In this document: piece by piece, positions 26,290-36,510 of the stretch
Layout of the letters: the number at the start of each line of letters is the position of its first letter
Numbering within the stretch: position 1 is the first letter of the stretch
From: Amycolatopsis endophytica
Lineage (GTDB): Bacteria; Actinomycetota; Actinomycetes; Mycobacteriales; Pseudonocardiaceae
DNA length: 64,000 nt
Assembly (NCBI RefSeq): GCF_013410405.1
Contig: NZ_JACCFK010000001.1
Span: 3,658,001 to 3,722,000, forward strand
Direction: 5' to 3'
Notes under the pieces: generated by a model
The model's database searches: none
Told to the model about the DNA's origin: nothing
What the model saw: the letters and a program-made list of their open reading frames with translations, nothing else
Made by a program: the position numbers and the translations under genes

Positions 26290-27080
26290 AGCCGCCGGTT
26301 GGCCAGTGCGCCCGTCGCGTTGCGGGCCTTGTCCGTGACCTCCGGGTCCACGTCCACGACCACCGATTCCGGCCCCGCGCCCAGCTGGGCGCGCACGCGC
26401 CCGAACCCGTCGGCCACGGTCGAGTACCCGATGCCCGTCGGCGCCTTCGGGTTCACCTCGACGCCCGCGGCCACCGGATCCGCCTGCCCGCAGCCCAGCA
26501 CCCAGCAGCCGGAGTCGAGCGCCCGCGCCCGCACCAGCACCTCCCACTGGTCGCGCTTGCCCTCGCCCGCACCCCACGACGTGGGCAGCACGACCGCGGA
26601 CGCGCCCCGGTCGGCCAGCGCGCGGAACAGCTCCGGGAACCGCACGTCGTAGCAGGTGGCGAAGCCCAGCGTGACGCCGTCGACCTGGACCGTCACCGGC
26701 TCTCCGCCCGGCGCGACCGTGTCGGACTCGCGGAAGCCGAACGCGTCGTAGAGGTGGATCTTGTGGTAGCCGGTGTGGTGCCCCAGCCCGGTGATGAGCA
26801 GTGTGTTGCGCACCCGGCCGTCCTCGTGCGGGGTGAACATGCCCGCCACCACCAGCACACCGTGCTCGTCCGCGATCGAGGCCACCGACTTGGCCCACGG
26901 CCCGTCCAGCGGCTCAGCGACCGGCCCGAGCGGCACCCCGAACCGCGCCATCGCGGCCTCCGGGAACACGACGACCCTGGCGCCCTCGCCCGCCGCGCGC
27001 GCCACGCCCTCGCGTATCGGGGCCAGGTTCTCCGCGGGCTCGGCACTCGATGTGAGCTGGCACAAGCCGATCCGGAGCAC
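26286..27080 (-). CDS. carbon-nitrogen hydrolase (nitrilase superfamily)
   Basis: 264 residues. The E-K-C catalytic triad is E41 (VFPEAAM), K107 (YHKIHLYD) and C143 ([11 protein letters not shown]). The pattern matches the Nit1/Nit2-like branch, which deaminates deaminated glutathione or omega-amides. The substrate here is not determined. GGGAGG precedes GTG 27080. It is divergent from hisD with only 49 bp between the starts. Confidence 0.9.
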
Positions 27081-27129
27081 GGGCTACCTCCCTGGTCGTC
27101 GTCAAGGTTCCAACTCGTACCCTAGACCC

Positions 27130-30141
<3,012 letters not shown>

Positions 30142-30145
<4 letters not shown>

Positions 30146-30300
30146 GCAAGGAGCTCGTGGCCGTTCTCCTGCTGGCGCTGGGCGGGTTCCTCGTCGGCGG
30201 CGTCTACAGCACGTGGAAGACGGCCAAGGTGCTGGCGGGCTTGTTGCTCGTCGCAGCACTCCTGGCCGTCGGTGGCGCCATCGCCTGGCTGGTGTCCTAG
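30142..30300 (+). CDS. small two-helix membrane protein at the end of hisDCB
   Basis: 52 residues starting at GTG 30142, which overlaps the hisB stop (GTGA). Two hydrophobic helices, [18 protein letters not shown] and [16 protein letters not shown], are joined by the basic turn STWKTAK. The overlap implies coupled translation with hisB. I do not know a function; it resembles small membrane proteins that end his operons in related genera. Confidence 0.65.
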
Positions 30301-30464
30301 AACTGTTTCGGAAGTGGCTTGCGTGGCGGTGCGGGTGGCGGCCCCTCCCGCCTGCCCGCCACCGCCCTCAACGGACGCGCTCCGCGCGACCCCGCAGAAT
30401 CAAACCCGCGGCGGTGCAAGTTGACGGCCCACCTCAAGCGGCTCCGCCGCTGAGGAAACACTCC
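30301..30464. repeat. GC-rich, hairpin-dense intergenic element
   Basis: No gene is seen. Two stem-loops are visible: GGCGGTGCGGG (about 30325) with a later CCCGCCACCGCC, and CCTCAAGCGGC-TCC-GCCGCTGAGG at 30432-30455 with one bulged base. It separates the his genes from the convergent exporter and may terminate both. The mosaic look suggests a dispersed intergenic repeat, which needs the rest of the genome to confirm. Confidence 0.45.
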
Positions 30465-32660
30465 TTAGCTCCGCGCTTCTTCCAGCTCGCGCCGGTCGTC
30501 GAGGTGCTTTTTCAGGCCCTCGCCCTCGACATCGACGTTCGGCAGCACCCGCTGCAGCCACTTCGGCAGCCACCACGCGTGCTTGCCGAGCAGTGACATC
30601 ACCGCGGGCACGATCGACATCCGCACCACGAACGCGTCCACCAGGACGCCGAACGCGAGCGCGAACCCGATCGACTGGATCAGCGACAGCTCGGCCGCGA
30701 CGAACCCGGCGAACACGCTGATCATGATCAGCGCGGCGGCGACCACGACGCGGGCGCCGTGCCGGAAGCCGCTGACCACGGCGTCGCGGGCGTCGGCGCC
30801 GTGCACGTAGTCCTCGCGCATCCGCGTCACCAGGAAAACCTGGTAGTCCATCGCGAGGCCGAAGAGCACACCGATCAGCAGGATCGGCAGCATGCTCATG
30901 ATCGGGCCGGTCGACTCCACACCGAGCAGATCGTTGAGCCAGCCCCACTGGAACACCGCGACCACCGCGCCGAAGGTCGCCACGACCGAGCCGAGGAAGC
31001 CCAGCGTCGCCTTCAACGGCACGATGATCGAGCGGAAGACCAGCATCAGCAGCAGGAACGCGAGCCCGACGATGAGGCTGAGGTAGGGCACCATCGCGCC
31101 CGCCATCTTCTCGGACACGTCGATCTGCAGCGCCGTCTGCCCGGTCACCGACAGCTTCGCGCCGGTGGCGCCGGACAACCGGTCGGACTGGTCGCGGATG
31201 CTCGCGACGAGGTTCTCGGTGTCCTCGCTGCTCGGGCCGCTCTTCGGGATGACGGTGAGCAGCGCCGTGTCGCCCTCGGCGTTGAACTGCGCCTGGGTCA
31301 CCGCGGCGACGTCGGGCAACCGGGAGATCGAGTCGGTGGCTTCCGTCGCGGCCAGGCGCGGATCGGGCGCCTCCGCGGAATCGATGACGACGATGAGCGG
31401 TCCGTTGGTGCCCTCGCCGAAGCCCTCGCTGATCAGGTCGTAGGCCTTGCGCTGCGTCGAGTCCGGGGCGGCGGTGGCGTCGGTGGGCAGGCCGAGCTGC
31501 ATGCTCAGCGCCGGGATCGCGACGACGACCAGCCCCAGCACGGCGGTGACCAGCACCGGAACGCGGTGACGGCCGACGTGGCGCGCCCAGCGCTCGCCGA
31601 GCGCGGGCTTGCCGTTGTGCTTCGGGCGTGCCCGCTTGCCGACCACCTTGCGCCCGGCGAACCCGAGCAGCGCGGGCAGCAGGGTGAGCGCGATGAGGAC
31701 CGCGATGGCCACGGTCACGGCGGCCGCGATGCCCATCTGGCCGAGGATCGGGATGCCGACGACGGTCAGCCCGACCAGCGCGATGATCACGGTGAGACCG
31801 GCGAACACCACGGCGGACCCGGCGGTGCCGACCGAGCGGCCGGCGGCCTGCTCGAAATCGTGCCCTTCGGCGAGTTCGTGCCGGTACCGGGAGACGATGA
31901 ACAGGGCGTAGTCGATGCCGACGGCCAGGCCCAGCATCAGCGCCAGGATCGGGGTGTTGGAGTTCAGGTCGACGAACCCGGACACCGTCATGACGCCCGC
32001 CATGCCCACGCCGACGCCGATGAGGGCGGTCAGCAGCGGCAGGCCCGCCGCGACGACCGAGCCGAACGTGATCGCCAGGACGATCGCCGCGACGATGACC
32101 CCGACGCCTTCGGTGGCCTCGGTGGCGGGCACTCCCTGGATCGCGTCGCCACCGAACTCGACGGTGAAACCGGCGCCCTTGGCGGCGTTGGCCGCGGATT
32201 TGAGCGCTTCGCGGTCACTGTCCGTGACGTCTGTCGCGGGGACGTTGTAGCTCACCTGGGCCATCGCGATGTTCCCGTCCGCGGAGACGGTCTTCGCCTG
32301 GTACGGGTCGGCGACCATCGTGACGCCCGGCGCCGTCTTGACCTTGGCGAGCATCTCCTCGACGGTCGCCTGCGCGGCCGGGTCGGTCAGCTTCTGCCCG
32401 TCCGGCGCCTCGATGGCCACGCGCGCCGTGGCGTTCCCAGCTGCGGCCTGCGGAAACTTGTCTTTCAGGTGATCGATGGCCTGCTGGGCCTCCGTGCCCG
32501 GAATGGTCACGGTATTGGACATCTGGCCGGACAGCGTCAGCGCGCCGCCGCCCAGGGCGAGCAGGATCGCCGTCCAGACACTCGCGACGAGCCAGCGCCG
32601 TCGGAAGGAAAACCGGGCGAGGCGGTAGAGCAGGGTGGCCACGGGTCGGCTCCAATTCAT
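30465..32660 (-). CDS. MMPL/RND-family exporter
   Basis: 731 residues from ATG 32660. Two repeats each have one helix, a large extracytoplasmic loop and five helices. The MMPL signatures GLAVGIDYALFIVSRYRHE and GLAMDYQVFLVTRMRED carry the membrane Asp-Tyr pairs used for proton coupling. Family members export lipids, drugs or siderophores across the inner membrane. It is divergent from a TetR gene with three palindromic operators between, so it is very probably repressed by that TetR and induced by its ligand. Confidence 0.93.
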   Translation of the reverse strand: MNWSRPVATLLYRLARFSFRRRWLVASVWTAILLALGGGALTLSGQMSNTVTIPGTEAQQAIDHLKDKFPQAAAGNATARVAIEAPDGQKLTDPAAQATVEEMLAKVKTAPGVTMVADPYQAKTVSADGNIAMAQVSYNVPATDVTDSDREALKSAANAAKGAGFTVEFGGDAIQGVPATEATEGVGVIVAAIVLAITFGSVVAAGLPLLTALIGVGVGMAGVMTVSGFVDLNSNTPILALMLGLAVGIDYALFIVSRYRHELAEGHDFEQAAGRSVGTAGSAVVFAGLTVIIALVGLTVVGIPILGQMGIAAAVTVAIAVLIALTLLPALLGFAGRKVVGKRARPKHNGKPALGERWARHVGRHRVPVLVTAVLGLVVVAIPALSMQLGLPTDATAAPDSTQRKAYDLISEGFGEGTNGPLIVVIDSAEAPDPRLAATEATDSISRLPDVAAVTQAQFNAEGDTALLTVIPKSGPSSEDTENLVASIRDQSDRLSGATGAKLSVTGQTALQIDVSEKMAGAMVPYLSLIVGLAFLLLMLVFRSIIVPLKATLGFLGSVVATFGAVVAVFQWGWLNDLLGVESTGPIMSMLPILLIGVLFGLAMDYQVFLVTRMREDYVHGADARDAVVSGFRHGARVVVAAALIMISVFAGFVAAELSLIQSIGFALAFGVLVDAFVVRMSIVPAVMSLLGKHAWWLPKWLQRVLPNVDVEGEGLKKHLDDRRELEEARS

Positions 32661-32693
32661 ATTCGGGTGACATCCGATCCGGTGATATCGAAG

Positions 32694-32755
32694 CTAGCCG
32701 ATCGGCAAGTGCGCTACAAGCCGATCGGCTAGTGTGTGACTAGCCGCACGGCTAG
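32694..32755. promoter_or_regulatory. three 16-bp TetR operators at exact 23-bp spacing
   Basis: The consensus is CTAGCCG-NN-CGGCTAG. Site A 32694-32709 (last half-site CGGCAAG, one mismatch), site B 32717-32732 (first half-site CAAGCCG, one mismatch), site C 32740-32755 (perfect). Starts are 23 bp apart in both intervals. The array fills the divergent promoter region between the exporter and the TetR gene. Confidence 0.85.
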
Positions 32756-32826
32756 GCTCCCAAACGTTTGCCGGGAAGATCCGGGTCGCGTACTCTTCGG
32801 CTGCCGACGAGGAGGTTCGACAGTCG

Positions 32827-33411
32827 ATGGCAGCCGTGGCCGGTCACGAGGACACCCGTACGCGCCTGCTCGCCACGGCTCTGCGGTTGTTCACCGAGCA
32901 CGGTGTCGAGGGCACGTCGCTGCAGATGATCGCGGACGCACTGGGCGTCACCAAGGCGGCGGTGTACTACCACTTCAAGGCGAAGGACGAGATCACCGAG
33001 GCCGTGGTCGAGCCCGCACTGCGCGAGCTGGAATCGATCGTCGGGGAGGCGGCCCGCGAGCGCAGGCCAGGCGCGCGGATCGACCACCTGCTCGACGGTT
33101 TCGTCGACATCGTGGTGCGGCACCGGGCGCTGGTGGCGCTGTTTTCGAGCGACCCGGGCGTGTCGCGGGCGCTGGAGAAGCACTTCTTCGGCAAGGAAAG
33201 CGCGATGGTCGGGATGATGTCCATCCTGACGGGTCCCGACCCCGACCCGGCACGCGACGTGGCCGCCCACGCGGCCCTCGCGGGCATCGCACTGGCGGGC
33301 GGATCACCCGAACTGGCGCACTACGGAGACGACACCCTGCGCGAGGCCCTTCTCGACGTCGGCCGCAAACTGCTCGGCCGCCCCCGCCCCCGCCGCACCC
33401 CCGAGCGCTGA
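32827..33411 (+). CDS. TetR-family repressor of the divergent exporter
   Basis: 194 residues. The HTH (GTSLQMIADALGVTKAAVYYHF) at about 28-50 is classic TetR; the rest is an all-helical ligand and dimer domain. GAGGAGG (32809-32815) precedes ATG 32827 by 11 nt. It probably binds the palindromes at 32694-32755 and controls itself and the exporter. Ligand unknown. An Arg/Pro-rich tail ends the protein. Confidence 0.93.
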   Translation: MAAVAGHEDTRTRLLATALRLFTEHGVEGTSLQMIADALGVTKAAVYYHFKAKDEITEAVVEPALRELESIVGEAARERRPGARIDHLLDGFVDIVVRHRALVALFSSDPGVSRALEKHFFGKESAMVGMMSILTGPDPDPARDVAAHAALAGIALAGGSPELAHYGDDTLREALLDVGRKLLGRPRPRRTPER

Positions 33412-33427
33412 CCCCGCCCCGGCCCGC

Positions 33428-33466
33428 GCGAGTCCCACGTTCCCGTCGGCGAGTCCCACGTTCCCG
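33428..33466. repeat. two copies of a 21-bp-period repeat
   Basis: GCGAGTCCCACGTTCCCG occurs at 33428-33445 and 33449-33466, exactly 21 bp apart. In reverse complement it reads CGGGAACGTGGGACTCGC, which shares a CGGGA-[GA]-CG....[AG]ACTCGC frame with the array at 3867. It lies between tetR and the GNAT gene. Confidence 0.85.
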
Positions 33467-33523
33467 CGGGCGCGCCTTCGTGCTCGCGGCGCCGTACCGT
33501 CTCCCGGCGGCCCGGGAGCGGGT

Positions 33524-33943
33524 TCAGGTCAGTGGCAACGTCAGGCAGGCGGCGGTCTCGGTGAACCCCCGTCGCACGTAGTACCCCCGCGCGGTCCGCG
33601 TCGCGACCGTCACCTCCACGGCGCCACCGCGCCGCGCCCGGCGGATGATCGCGTCCACCAGTAGTCCGCCTGCGCCTCGTCCGCGGTGCGCGGGCGCGAC
33701 CACCAGCTCCAGCAGCTGGCTGACCGGCCCGTTCGCGGAGAGCGACAGCATCCGTGCGGCCAGCGCGTACCCGGCGACCTCGCCGTCGGCGTCCGCGACC
33801 AGGAGATCGGCGCCGTCGTAGGTCATCGCGGCGATGAGTTCTTCGTAGTTGTGGTCGAAGGCGGACCGGCTGGCACCGTGGGACGCGTCGAGGATGGCGA
33901 ACACCGCTTCGGCGTCGGTGACATCGGCTGGCCTGATTCGCAC
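33524..33943 (-). CDS. GNAT-family N-acetyltransferase
   Basis: 139 residues. The acetyl-CoA pyrophosphate loop is HRGRGAGG (motif A, about 88-95), followed by TARGYYVRRGFTET, the usual GNAT end with a conserved Tyr. The substrate cannot be predicted. GTG 33943 lies directly after GAGGAG, which is too close to be ideal, so the true start may differ slightly. Confidence 0.85.
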   Translation of the reverse strand: MRIRPADVTDAEAVFAILDASHGASRSAFDHNYEELIAAMTYDGADLLVADADGEVAGYALAARMLSLSANGPVSQLLELVVAPAHRGRGAGGLLVDAIIRRARRGGAVEVTVATRTARGYYVRRGFTETAACLTLPLT

Positions 33944-34114
33944 CTCCTCATTGTGCTCATTCAGTGACGACCGAGGTACTTCGGAGGCGCCCGCTCGGGT
34001 GAGTCGGACGTCGTTCGGGCAACGACGAACGCCGCGTCACGCTCGACGGAAGCGAGCCTGGATTGTCGGTGGCCCCTGGTAAGCAAGAAGCACGAACCGA
34101 AGGGGATGATCTCC

Positions 34115-34525
34115 ATGCTCCACACCGCCACCGGCCTCCTCGACCTGTGGACCGAGCCGCAGGAACGGGAATGCCTGTCCTGCTACGTGACCCGTATGCT
34201 GGCCGACTTCGGCTGCGACGGGACATTGCGCTGGACCGGGCTCTGGCGCGGCATCCGCGCGCCCGGGTTCAAGGCGCTCGACCACGCACTGCGGACCACA
34301 CCGTGCGACTGCGGTGTGCCGTCCGCTCTCGGAGCGGCGCCGATGACGGAACGGCACGCCGCCGCGCCACGGGCTTCGAGCGGCACCGAGCCGGATCCGC
34401 CGCCACCCTGCCCCGGTGTCCGCCGCGGCTCGATTCGGCCCTGTTCCGCCTGGGAGCGACCGCCGCCCGACCCCGGCCGGGGTGACTGCCGCTCGCCCAG
34501 CCCCGCTTCGCCCATGAGCCGGTGA
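34115..34525 (+). CDS. DUF2695-like protein with atypical tail
   Basis: 136 residues. The first 65 residues (RECLSCYVTRMLADFGCDGTL, RGIRAPGFKALDHAL, PCDC) match the DUF2695 pattern. The following 65 residues are a Pro/Arg/Ser-rich stretch unlike the usual short ending, suggesting an old frameshift or run-on. I prefer ATG 34115, 9 nt after AGGGG (34101-34105); ATG 34106 abuts the ribosome site. Function unknown. Confidence 0.6.
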   Translation: MLHTATGLLDLWTEPQERECLSCYVTRMLADFGCDGTLRWTGLWRGIRAPGFKALDHALRTTPCDCGVPSALGAAPMTERHAAAPRASSGTEPDPPPPCPGVRRGSIRPCSAWERPPPDPGRGDCRSPSPASPMSR

Positions 34526-34603
34526 CTGGCGGTCGACCGGCCGCGAGATCGTACCGCGGAGGAGCGGGTGACCCGCGGAACCGCCGCCGCAGCGCGGCTG
34601 CGC

Positions 34604-35065
34604 CTACGCGCCGCCCTCGGCTGCCGGCTTGAGACCGCGCGCGCCCGGCCCGTACTGCGCCATCCGGTCGTCGGTGTTGTAGAGCCCGCACACGCGCAGC
34701 GAAAGGCACCCGCAGCCGACGCACCCGGTGAGCCGGTCACGCAGCCGCTGGAGCGCGTCGATCCGGGCGTCTAGTTCGTCCTGCCAACCGCGGGACAGCC
34801 GGGCCCAGTCGGCCTTCGTCGGAGCGTGATCGTGTGGCAGGGTGGACAGGGCGTCGTGGATCTCTTCGAGGCTCAGTCCCACCCGCTGCGCGGCACGGAT
34901 GAACGCGATCCGGCGCAGCACCGACCGCGGATAGCGGCGCTGGTTCCCGGCCGAGCGCTCCGACGAGATCAGGCCACGGTCCTCGTAGAAGCGCAATGCG
35001 GTGTGCGGCACGCCGCTGCGGTCCGCGACCTGGCCGATGGTCAGGTGGTCGGCAAGCTTGGTCAC
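34604..35065 (-). CDS. soxR: redox-sensing activator SoxR
   Basis: 153 residues. N-terminal MerR-type HTH (LTIGQVADRSGVPHTALRFYEDRGL), dimer helix, and the [2Fe-2S] cysteines C115, C118, C120 and C126 in the SoxR pattern CxxCxCxxxxxC. SoxR is activated by oxidation of the cluster by redox-cycling compounds. GTG 35065 is 6 nt after a minus-strand TAGGCT, so the message is probably leaderless. A SoxR box lies 20 bp upstream of the start. In actinomycetes SoxR often responds to the cell's own redox-active metabolites. Confidence 0.94.
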   Translation of the reverse strand: MTKLADHLTIGQVADRSGVPHTALRFYEDRGLISSERSAGNQRRYPRSVLRRIAFIRAAQRVGLSLEEIHDALSTLPHDHAPTKADWARLSRGWQDELDARIDALQRLRDRLTGCVGCGCLSLRVCGLYNTDDRMAQYGPGARGLKPAAEGGA

Positions 35066-35084
35066 GGCGCCAGCCTAGCCTTGA

Positions 35085-35102
35085 CTTCAACTTAAGTCGA
35101 GG
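35085..35102. promoter_or_regulatory. SoxR box
   Basis: CTTCAACTTAAGTCGAGG matches the enterobacterial SoxR operator CCTCAAGTTAACTTGAGG at 14 of 18 positions. It lies immediately upstream of the soxR -10 (TAGGCT). No other soxR-facing gene starts here, so autoregulation is the simplest reading. Confidence 0.7.
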
Positions 35103-35338
35103 TTGCGTCGTTCGGGTGCGGGGGACGGGAAGCATTCCGGGCCCGGGGTCCACAGTAGAGGTGCCGTGGCTCCCCGTATGTCTACAGTGGAATGGAGAGC
35201 CGGGAGGTGGCCGGCCACGACCTCGCCTCGCCCACCGCCTCGACGCGGTGCACCCGCCGTCCGCCACCACACTCCGCGCACGAGGATGCGCCCTCCGGCA
35301 GCGGAGGCGATTTTCGCCTCAGGTCCCGTCGCGGCCCC
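35103..35338. other. 236-nt stretch without an assigned gene; one long inverted repeat
   Basis: TCCACAGTAGA (35149-35159) and TCTACAGTGGA (35181-35191) are inverted arms with one mismatch and a 21-nt spacer. Short open frames exist on both strands. One on the minus strand ends CAECGGGRRVHRV and looks slightly protein-like, but none has a convincing start. Confidence 0.4.
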
Positions 35339-35653
35339 TCACGGCGTGTGGGGCAGGAGGCGGCACAGGGCCTCGGCGCCGACCGCCAGGTCCTCGGCCG
35401 CCGCGGCGGACTGCTCCAGCTTGCTGTGGATCGTCTGGTAGGCGAGCAGGCCCAGCTCGTGCTCCCGCGTCCGCAGCGCCGGGCAGGCGCGCAGGTCATC
35501 GAGGAGGCGGGTCACCGCGCTCGCCATCGTGGCCAGCCCTTCGAGCAGGTCGCGCACCTCGTCCCGGTCCAGGCGGGCGCCCTCCAGACCGTCCAGCGAC
35601 TTGGCCAGCTCCCCGGCCAGATCGGCGATCCGCACTTCGCTCTGCGACGACAT
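35339..35653 (-). CDS. small all-helical protein of unknown function
   Basis: 104 residues from ATG 35653, with GAGGGAG just upstream. Almost wholly helical with heptad-like Leu spacing ([18 protein letters not shown] ... [21 protein letters not shown]). No domain recognised. A longer in-frame reading upstream is Gly/Arg/Pro-rich and unlikely to be coded. Probably cytoplasmic. It points away from hisH across 227 bp. Confidence 0.55.
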
Positions 35654-35880
35654 CGTCACTCCCTCGCGCGGCATCCCGGCGCCGCATGCCCCCTCCACCC
35701 GACATCCAACGCCTCGGAGTCGCTCGACGGAACCGCCAGTCCGGCCACCACCCGGACGCCCCGCGTGCCCGAAGCCGCCCGGGGCCGTCCGTCCCGGCGG
35801 AGCCGCTTCCGCCCGGCACGACAAAGCCCGCGCGCGGCCGCCCGGCGGAACAACCGTCGCGGAGCCTCTAGACTGGTCAG

Positions 35881-36510
35881 GTGGCTCGCGTCGTGATTCT
35901 GGACTACGGATCGGGGAACCTGCGCTCCGCCGAGCGCGCTGTCCGGCGCGCCGGCGCCGAGGTCGAGGTGACCGCCGATCCGCACGCCGCCCTCGAAGCC
36001 GACGGGCTCGTGGTCCCGGGGGTGGGGGCCTACGCCGCCTGCATGGCTGGCCTGCTCTCCGTCGGCGGCGAGAAGATCATCGGCAGCCGTCTCGCCGGGG
36101 GGCGTCCGGTGCTGGGCATCTGCGTCGGCATGCAGATCCTGTTCGAGCGGGGCGTCGAGCACGGCGTCGAGACCCAGGGCACCGGCGAGTGGCCCGGCAC
36201 GGTCGAGCGCCTGCACGCCGACGTCGTCCCCCACATGGGCTGGAACACCGTTCGCGCGCCGGGGGACTCGCAGCTGTTCGCCGGCCTCGACGCGAGCACC
36301 CGGTTCTACTTCGTGCACTCCTACGCCGCCCGCCGCTGGGAGCTGGACTCCGGCCTGCCCGGCCAGCAGCCCAAGGTGACCTGGTCACACCACGGCGAGG
36401 ACTTCGTCGCGGCCGCCGAGAACGGACCGCTGTGGGCGACCCAGTTCCACCCGGAGAAGTCCGGCGACGCGGGCGCGCACCTGCTGGAGAACTGGCTCCG
36501 CACCCTCTGA
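35881..36510 (+). CDS. hisH: imidazole glycerol phosphate synthase, glutaminase subunit
   Basis: 209 residues, class I glutamine amidotransferase. The triad is C81 (GICVGMQ), H190 and E192 (FHPEKSG). It supplies ammonia to HisF. TAGACT (35869-35874) is 6 nt before GTG 35881, so it starts a second his transcription unit, 5.6 kb from hisB, probably leaderless. hisA follows after 35 nt. Confidence 0.96.

Follow-up and report, generated by a model that had tools for sequence, protein, structure and literature searches.

Three palindromic operators stand between a TetR-family regulator gene and a divergent MMPL-family exporter gene in Amycolatopsis endophytica. The whole arrangement is probably best explained as a steric repressor array superimposed on the promoter predicted for MMPL. 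The operators repeat at the distance that separates the -35 from the -10 hexamer, and the third overlaps a CRP-like box.

The operator array and its flanking genes

The window is the whole stretch of DNA analysed, 64,000 nucleotides long. As the preliminary description stated, it contains three 16-bp palindromes starting at 32694, 32717 and 32740, one perfect and two with a single mismatch. A TetR-family gene flanks them on one side and, on the other, an MMPL gene that is transcribed divergently. Both start-to-start distances, O1-O2 and O2-O3, are 23 bp.

32694-32709, no strand: operator O1, CTAGCCGATCGGCAAG, one mismatch; part of the predicted MMPL -10 falls within its left half
32717-32732, no strand: operator O2, CAAGCCGATCGGCTAG, one mismatch; part of the predicted MMPL -35 falls within its left half, CAAG
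32740-32755, no strand: operator O3, CTAGCCGCACGGCTAG, no mismatches; overlaps the CRP-like box
30465..32660, minus strand: MMPL-family exporter gene, listed open reading frame (PF03176, E 4.7e-104)
32827..33411, plus strand: TetR-family regulator gene, open reading frame of 194 aa (PF00440, E 9.3e-16)
32768..32773, plus strand: predicted tetR -35, TTGCCG (read by eye)
32791..32796, plus strand: predicted tetR -10, TACTCT (read by eye), 17 bp after its -35

When the window is searched with CTAGCCG-NN-CGGCTAG, 12 matches with up to three mismatches are found, whereas 100 shuffles gave 5.18 on average and never as many as 12. With at most one mismatch, O1, O2 and O3 are the only matches in the window and in the whole genome (7,197,368 bases). 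A candidate fourth operator at 32763 (AACGTTTGCCGGGAAG, picked out by eye) resembles the motif in its right half only and is not counted. A looser two-site array pattern has a match in 39 of 249 family genomes (9 of 46 genera), all 39 of which carry a tetR ortholog, compared with one match each in 3 of the 249 for a reversed control. The strict O1-O2 pattern is found in 1 of 394 genomes sampled across the class, the window's own; since it misses array variants, this speaks for the rarity of the exact form and not for an absence of arrays elsewhere.

The regulator has a TetR_N helix-turn-helix (PF00440, 57.8 bits against a cut-off of 24). All 21 named NCBIfam TetR subfamilies listed (ScbR, AcrR and others) score below their whole-protein cut-offs, the best being ScbR with 60.2 bits of the 150 required. 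The exporter carries an MMPL domain (PF03176, 348.4 bits against 20.5), and it scores 216.8 bits against the NCBIfam cut-off of 1400 for the MmpL3 trehalose monomycolate exporter, too low for that identity. Its start is probably the GTG at 32642, with GGAG upstream, rather than the ATG at 32660; the ATG is gone while the GTG stays in relatives L012, L016 and L017 (by eye). The pair is set, with other genes, among histidine-synthesis genes (window 26914-36510), with histidinol dehydrogenase and an aminotransferase on one side and glutamine amidotransferase on the other. Between the end of the array and the predicted tetR -35 there are about 12 bp, and strong tetR autoregulation is accordingly not predicted; the window's three sites, ending before the predicted tetR promoter, would leave any such autoregulation unexplained.

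A predicted promoter grid within the operators

Relatives of the array were collected from 137 loci, made up of 19 from the genus, 38 further ones from the family and 80 named records out of a larger number. These collapse to 114 distinct upstream regions of tetR homologs, 95 of which have a divergent MMPL gene and form the MMPL-type set. The loci are mostly from Pseudonocardiaceae and related to each other, which means that locus counts do not represent independent events.

Across many loci, the half-site consensus is CTWGCCG. The relatives do not bear out a reading of both single mismatches as weak half-sites. The one in O1 (CGGCAAG) is tolerated variation: most half-sites have either A or T at position 3, and the right CAAG of O1 was accordingly rejected as a weak half-site. 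Only CAAGCCG in O2 is a real deviation, and its A, conserved in 90 of 95 MMPL-type loci, supplies the TTG of the predicted -35.

32691..32696, minus strand: predicted MMPL -10, TAGCTT (TAGNNT); the final T is invariant (95/95) and lies 3 bp away from O1
32714..32719, minus strand: predicted MMPL -35, TTGTAG, 17 bp from the -10; its first three positions are T in 95, T in 90 and G in 88 of 95 loci
32684, minus strand: inferred MMPL transcription start, placed from the hexamers about 7 bp past the -10

In sequence, TTGTAG-17-TAGCTT agrees with the sigma-70-type pattern TTG...(17-18 bp)...TANNNT. The left half of O1 is CTAG in all 95 MMPL-type loci, so that O1 ends in TAG on the MMPL strand (95/95), and the base at O1-3 is always A, that is, T on the MMPL strand. 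The corresponding O2 flank has that T in just 3 of 95, which places the invariant T outside the operator. The left half of O2 reads CAAG in 83 loci, with 12 exceptions (TAAG 7, CTAG 4, CCAG 1). Position 2 of the half-site is thereby A at O2-left in 90 of 95, against T at O1-left in 95 of 95, at O3-left in 73 of 82 and at O4-left in 41 of 47. The left CAAG of O2 is thus a conserved sub-optimal half-site that creates the predicted MMPL -35, and the array would sit on the predicted promoter with the left half of O1 on the -10 and that of O2 on the -35.

Since the two hexamers fall at the same place in successive repeats, the operator spacing of 23 or 24 bp corresponds to a promoter spacer of 17 or 18 bp (17+6=23; 18+6=24). 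The first pair of sites is 23 bp apart in 65 and 24 bp apart in 30 of the 95 MMPL-type loci. The register claimed from the window is therefore conserved, though as 23 or 24 bp and not as an exact 23. The O1-O2 spacing can be explained also by the promoter's own 17-18 bp spacer. However, the register is maintained at sites past O3, and the promoter grid by itself is therefore not enough to account for the 23 bp.

Conservation of the array and its register

Within the genus, the tetR ortholog and an O1-O2 pair at 23 or 24 bp are found in all 19 genomes searched, and an in-register O3 in 18; the exception, G009 (L027), has lost O3. The same arrays thus turned up where the preliminary description had suggested looking, upstream of orthologous MMPL/TetR pairs. 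On the side of the array that faces tetR, L019 and L027 carry additional DNA in which inverted repeats can be seen by eye; L019 has a further site beginning 110 bp after O3, and L027 is the locus without O3. A tetR ortholog occurs in 54 of the 249 family genomes, spread over 11 of 46 genera.

Counting as a site anything with at most one mismatch to CWWGCCGNNCGGCWWG, the 114 regions hold no site in 6 cases, one in 5, two in 18, three in 50, four in 30, five in 4 and six in 1. The 229 distances between neighbours in these regions are 23 bp (165), 24 (40), 46 (15), 33 (3), 45 (2), 69 (2), 25 (1) and 110 (1), of which 222 are in the set 23, 24, 46, 47, 69 and 70. With counts and distances as variable as these, an array of three sites is one of several states, and the period is properly 23-24 bp rather than 23. 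The register itself is conserved across these sequences, as 23/24 bp or about two to three times that. The first interval is often 24 bp in close relatives. The third and fourth sites are 23 bp apart in 25 and 24 bp in 7 of 35 cases, the fourth and fifth 23 bp in 3 and 24 bp in 1 of 5, and the fifth and sixth 23 bp in the single case. The 25-bp distance belongs to Dactylosporangium L174, and the three of 33 bp, which equal 23 plus about one helical turn, to Sorangium L148, Protofrankia L163 and Frankia L168. Some distant homologs, such as L175, have no recognised sites upstream. Residues 29-37 of the helix-turn-helix are identical in all 30 aligned sequences, the window's and four myxobacterial ones included. 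The regulator and the palindromes next to its gene are conserved together.

A different origin of the period is a serious contender, to which we give slightly less than an even chance: contacts between neighbouring dimers would set the 23 bp, in a phased cooperative assembly along the lines of the preliminary description, and the promoter would have adapted to the array. With a helical turn of 10.5 bp, a 23-bp step rotates successive sites by about 69 degrees. The continuation of the register from the third to the sixth site points this way, as do the six sites at exactly 23 bp in Catellatospora L153, the five at exactly 23 bp in Kribbella L169 and the places where the distance skips to 46 or 69 bp. 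Under a laxer site rule, 23 bp is also kept in 6 of 7 Mycobacterium-clade homologs of 41-45% identity (22 bp in the other), five of these six having the changed half-site CTTTACG. However, such contacts would have to tolerate 24 bp, and 33 bp in three cases, and the more distant homologs of genus g71, probably Streptomyces, have their sites 41-47 bp apart in most genomes.

Probable spread to other phyla and other output genes

Six myxobacterial loci (Nannocystis, Polyangium and Sorangium) have a tetR gene with sites, and a divergent MMPL gene is absent from them by tblastn. A divergent P450 frame is clear in three, L142, L145 and L146, that of L145 having been checked against Pfam (E 3.3e-28). 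In L148 and L151 the P450-similar sequence is frame-broken or out of frame, and L141 has a long antisense frame only; a P450 gene is likely present beside tetR in these three as well, judging from the sequence. The six loci have O1-O2 at 23 bp in 5, A at O1-3 in 5, CTAG at O1-left in 5 and CAAG at O2-left in 6. The predicted promoter code thus persists beside a new gene.

In the tree, the myxobacterial tetR sequences nest within those of Prauserella and Saccharomonospora (99/83 at the fork joining them to P. cavernicola), from which we infer that tetR and its array were probably transferred horizontally to myxobacteria as a cassette. Judged by eye, the same kind of tetR with operators lies beside a P450 in Nonomuraea L179 and perhaps in G174 (L099). 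In Dactylosporangium L174, also by eye, its neighbour is a KstD-like FAD enzyme.

A wider proposal, tentative and to our minds somewhat doubtful, would join these threads. In this TetR subfamily, two to six dimers may line up on DNA as phased, cooperative chains whose 23-bp step is intrinsic. The promoters would share that step, and a single array would thereby mask -10, -35 and activator site; repressor and array-promoter would then make up a portable cassette that has crossed phyla and changed its output, from exporter to P450 and perhaps to a steroid-dehydrogenase-like enzyme.

A CRP-like box over the third operator

The CRP consensus is TGTGA-N6-TCACA. The window has a related box across the start of O3, which matches it at 5 of 5 positions in the left arm and 3 of 5 in the right.

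32735..32750, no strand: CRP-like box TGTGA-CTAGCC-GCACG, centred on 32742.5, at about -58.5 relative to the inferred MMPL start

TGTGA-N6-NMACR follows O2 in 75 of 95 MMPL-type loci, with a background of about 0.0002 per tested stretch, and is missing from the other 20. A looser form is found in 77; the remaining 18 are loci of Micromonosporaceae, Frankiaceae and Kribbella together with L027 and L116. In ten of the 75 loci the box is retained while O3 is lost (more than 3 mismatches; L097 is borderline at 4). The O3 core in the other 65 is GCACGG (44), GAACAG (18), ACACGG (2) or GCACGA (1), against GATCGG at O1 in 55 and at O2 in 65 of the 75. The O2-O3 spacer and the O3 core are thus conserved beyond what an operator would need.

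From the box centre to the end of the MMPL -10 is 51.5 bp in 46, 52.5 bp in 30 and 53.5 bp in 1 of the 77 looser-form loci, a near-fixed distance that is partly due to the operator register. This puts the centre at roughly -58.5 to -60.5 relative to the inferred start of MMPL. The box was also considered as an element serving tetR and rejected, the distance to candidate tetR -10s varying from 49.5 to 75.5 bp (159.5 bp in one locus), with 17 of 77 loci having no candidate.

The window's genome encodes a Crp-type regulator, and Crp is the best candidate for a regulator that may act at the box. In Mycobacterium tuberculosis, CRP sites are centred at -57.5 (whiB1) and -59.5 (Rv1057), and in a crp deletion mutant in exponential growth the log2 fold changes are -1.13 and -4.21, respectively (PMC4117774).

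O3 might instead be a TetR operator only, the TGTGA spacer being a further TetR contact with no second regulator involved. TGTGA does abut O3 and could extend the operator, and the right arm of the box matches the CRP consensus poorly. We nevertheless consider this unlikely, given that ten loci keep TGTGA-N6-NMACR with O3 gone, and that such a flank is absent at O1 and O2 and unconserved at O4.

Proposed mechanism and significance

TetR binding, repression, activation by Crp and induction by a ligand are what we infer from the array, the register, the promoter code and the CRP-like box, which, like their conservation, are read directly in the DNA. In the steric repressor array, TetR dimers would bind 16-bp palindromes with the half-site CTWGCCG, 23-24 bp apart. 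As operators and hexamers have the same period, the dimer on O1 would cover the -10 of the divergent MMPL promoter and the dimer on O2 its -35, while the dimer on O3 would lie over the CRP-like activator box near -58.5. Without ligand, TetR would mask -10, -35 and activator box, excluding RNA polymerase and activator together; ligand binding would free the promoter, and the exporter would be made. Cooperativity between neighbouring dimers, from which the preliminary description predicted switch-like control, is plausible as well. Across the tree, the register runs on to O4-O6 although none of the known elements of the MMPL promoter calls for it there, so neighbours probably aid each other's binding.

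That the array is nothing but a functionless tandem duplication of a 23-bp unit is highly improbable: the geometry is indeed tandem, and the spacers in Catellatospora are alike, but in the Pseudonocardiaceae loci listed the O1-O2 spacer for the most part differs from the O2-O3 one and changes from species to species, although the sites are retained, and the sites recur from Actinomycetota to Myxococcota.

The steric repressor array offers a sequence rule for a repressor-site spacing of 23-24 bp, namely the start-to-start distance of -35 and -10. Comparing relatives separates three overlapping codes, those of repressor, polymerase and activator. The natural variants, with two to six sites, 23 or 24 bp and with or without O3, could be used to measure how operator number and phase affect induction. 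The repressor-promoter unit also seems to retain its grammar after a change of phylum and target gene.

Comparison with known systems

There are precedents for several TetR-family dimers on DNA. EthR reportedly octamerises cooperatively, and two dimers of QacR are said to bind cooperatively. DarR, a further precedent, binds DNA as a dimer of dimers, although on one 20-bp site (PMC10636190). SACE_5754 was considered because of a similar gene order. It is an actinomycete TetR-family repressor, but its motif is TYMAGG-n-KKTKRA and it does not bind its own divergent region (PMC6346578); with its differing motif it was rejected as an ortholog of the window's TetR.

Other systems share the gene arrangement. 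MAB_4384 is a TetR-family repressor of the divergent MmpL-type pump mmpS5/mmpL5, but its operator is a single one of 27 bp, made of two 13-nt inverted sequences (PMC5895659). In TetR/tetA, regulator and exporter are divergent and palindromic operators control both promoters, but there are two operators, of 15 bp (PMC3511530). Three sites are not exceptional for the TetR family, although the preliminary description noted that most of its repressors use one or two: SCO7222 and ActR are published cases in which a single divergent intergenic region has three operators or gives three shifted complexes. Their operator sequences are, however, unlike the window's, and the passages on them mention no fixed period or promoter grid (PMC3511530).

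By its operators, the nearest of the known systems compared is SCO3367/SCO3366 of Streptomyces coelicolor. It pairs a TetR-family regulator with a divergent exporter gene and has half-sites nearly identical to the window's, the footprinted operators of SCO3367 being listed as ACTTGCCGGGCGGCAAGT and ACTTGACGCCCGGCTAGT; it differs in having two operators and an MFS exporter, where the window has three and an MMPL exporter (PMC3511530). In genus g71, SCO3367-like sites 41-47 bp apart are found in 21 of 30 genomes with a strict pattern (L183-L212), and any match in 25. Among the distinct rows listed for these pairs, no midway site above threshold was found. Three g71 genomes have a further site 24, 33 or 34 bp on. 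The g71 TetR beside the sites has about 30-38% identity to the window's over the matched stretch; in one g71 genome, a TetR has 48% over residues 9-72. Among the matches listed in a literature search, there is no earlier account of a 23-bp phased TetR array on a promoter grid.
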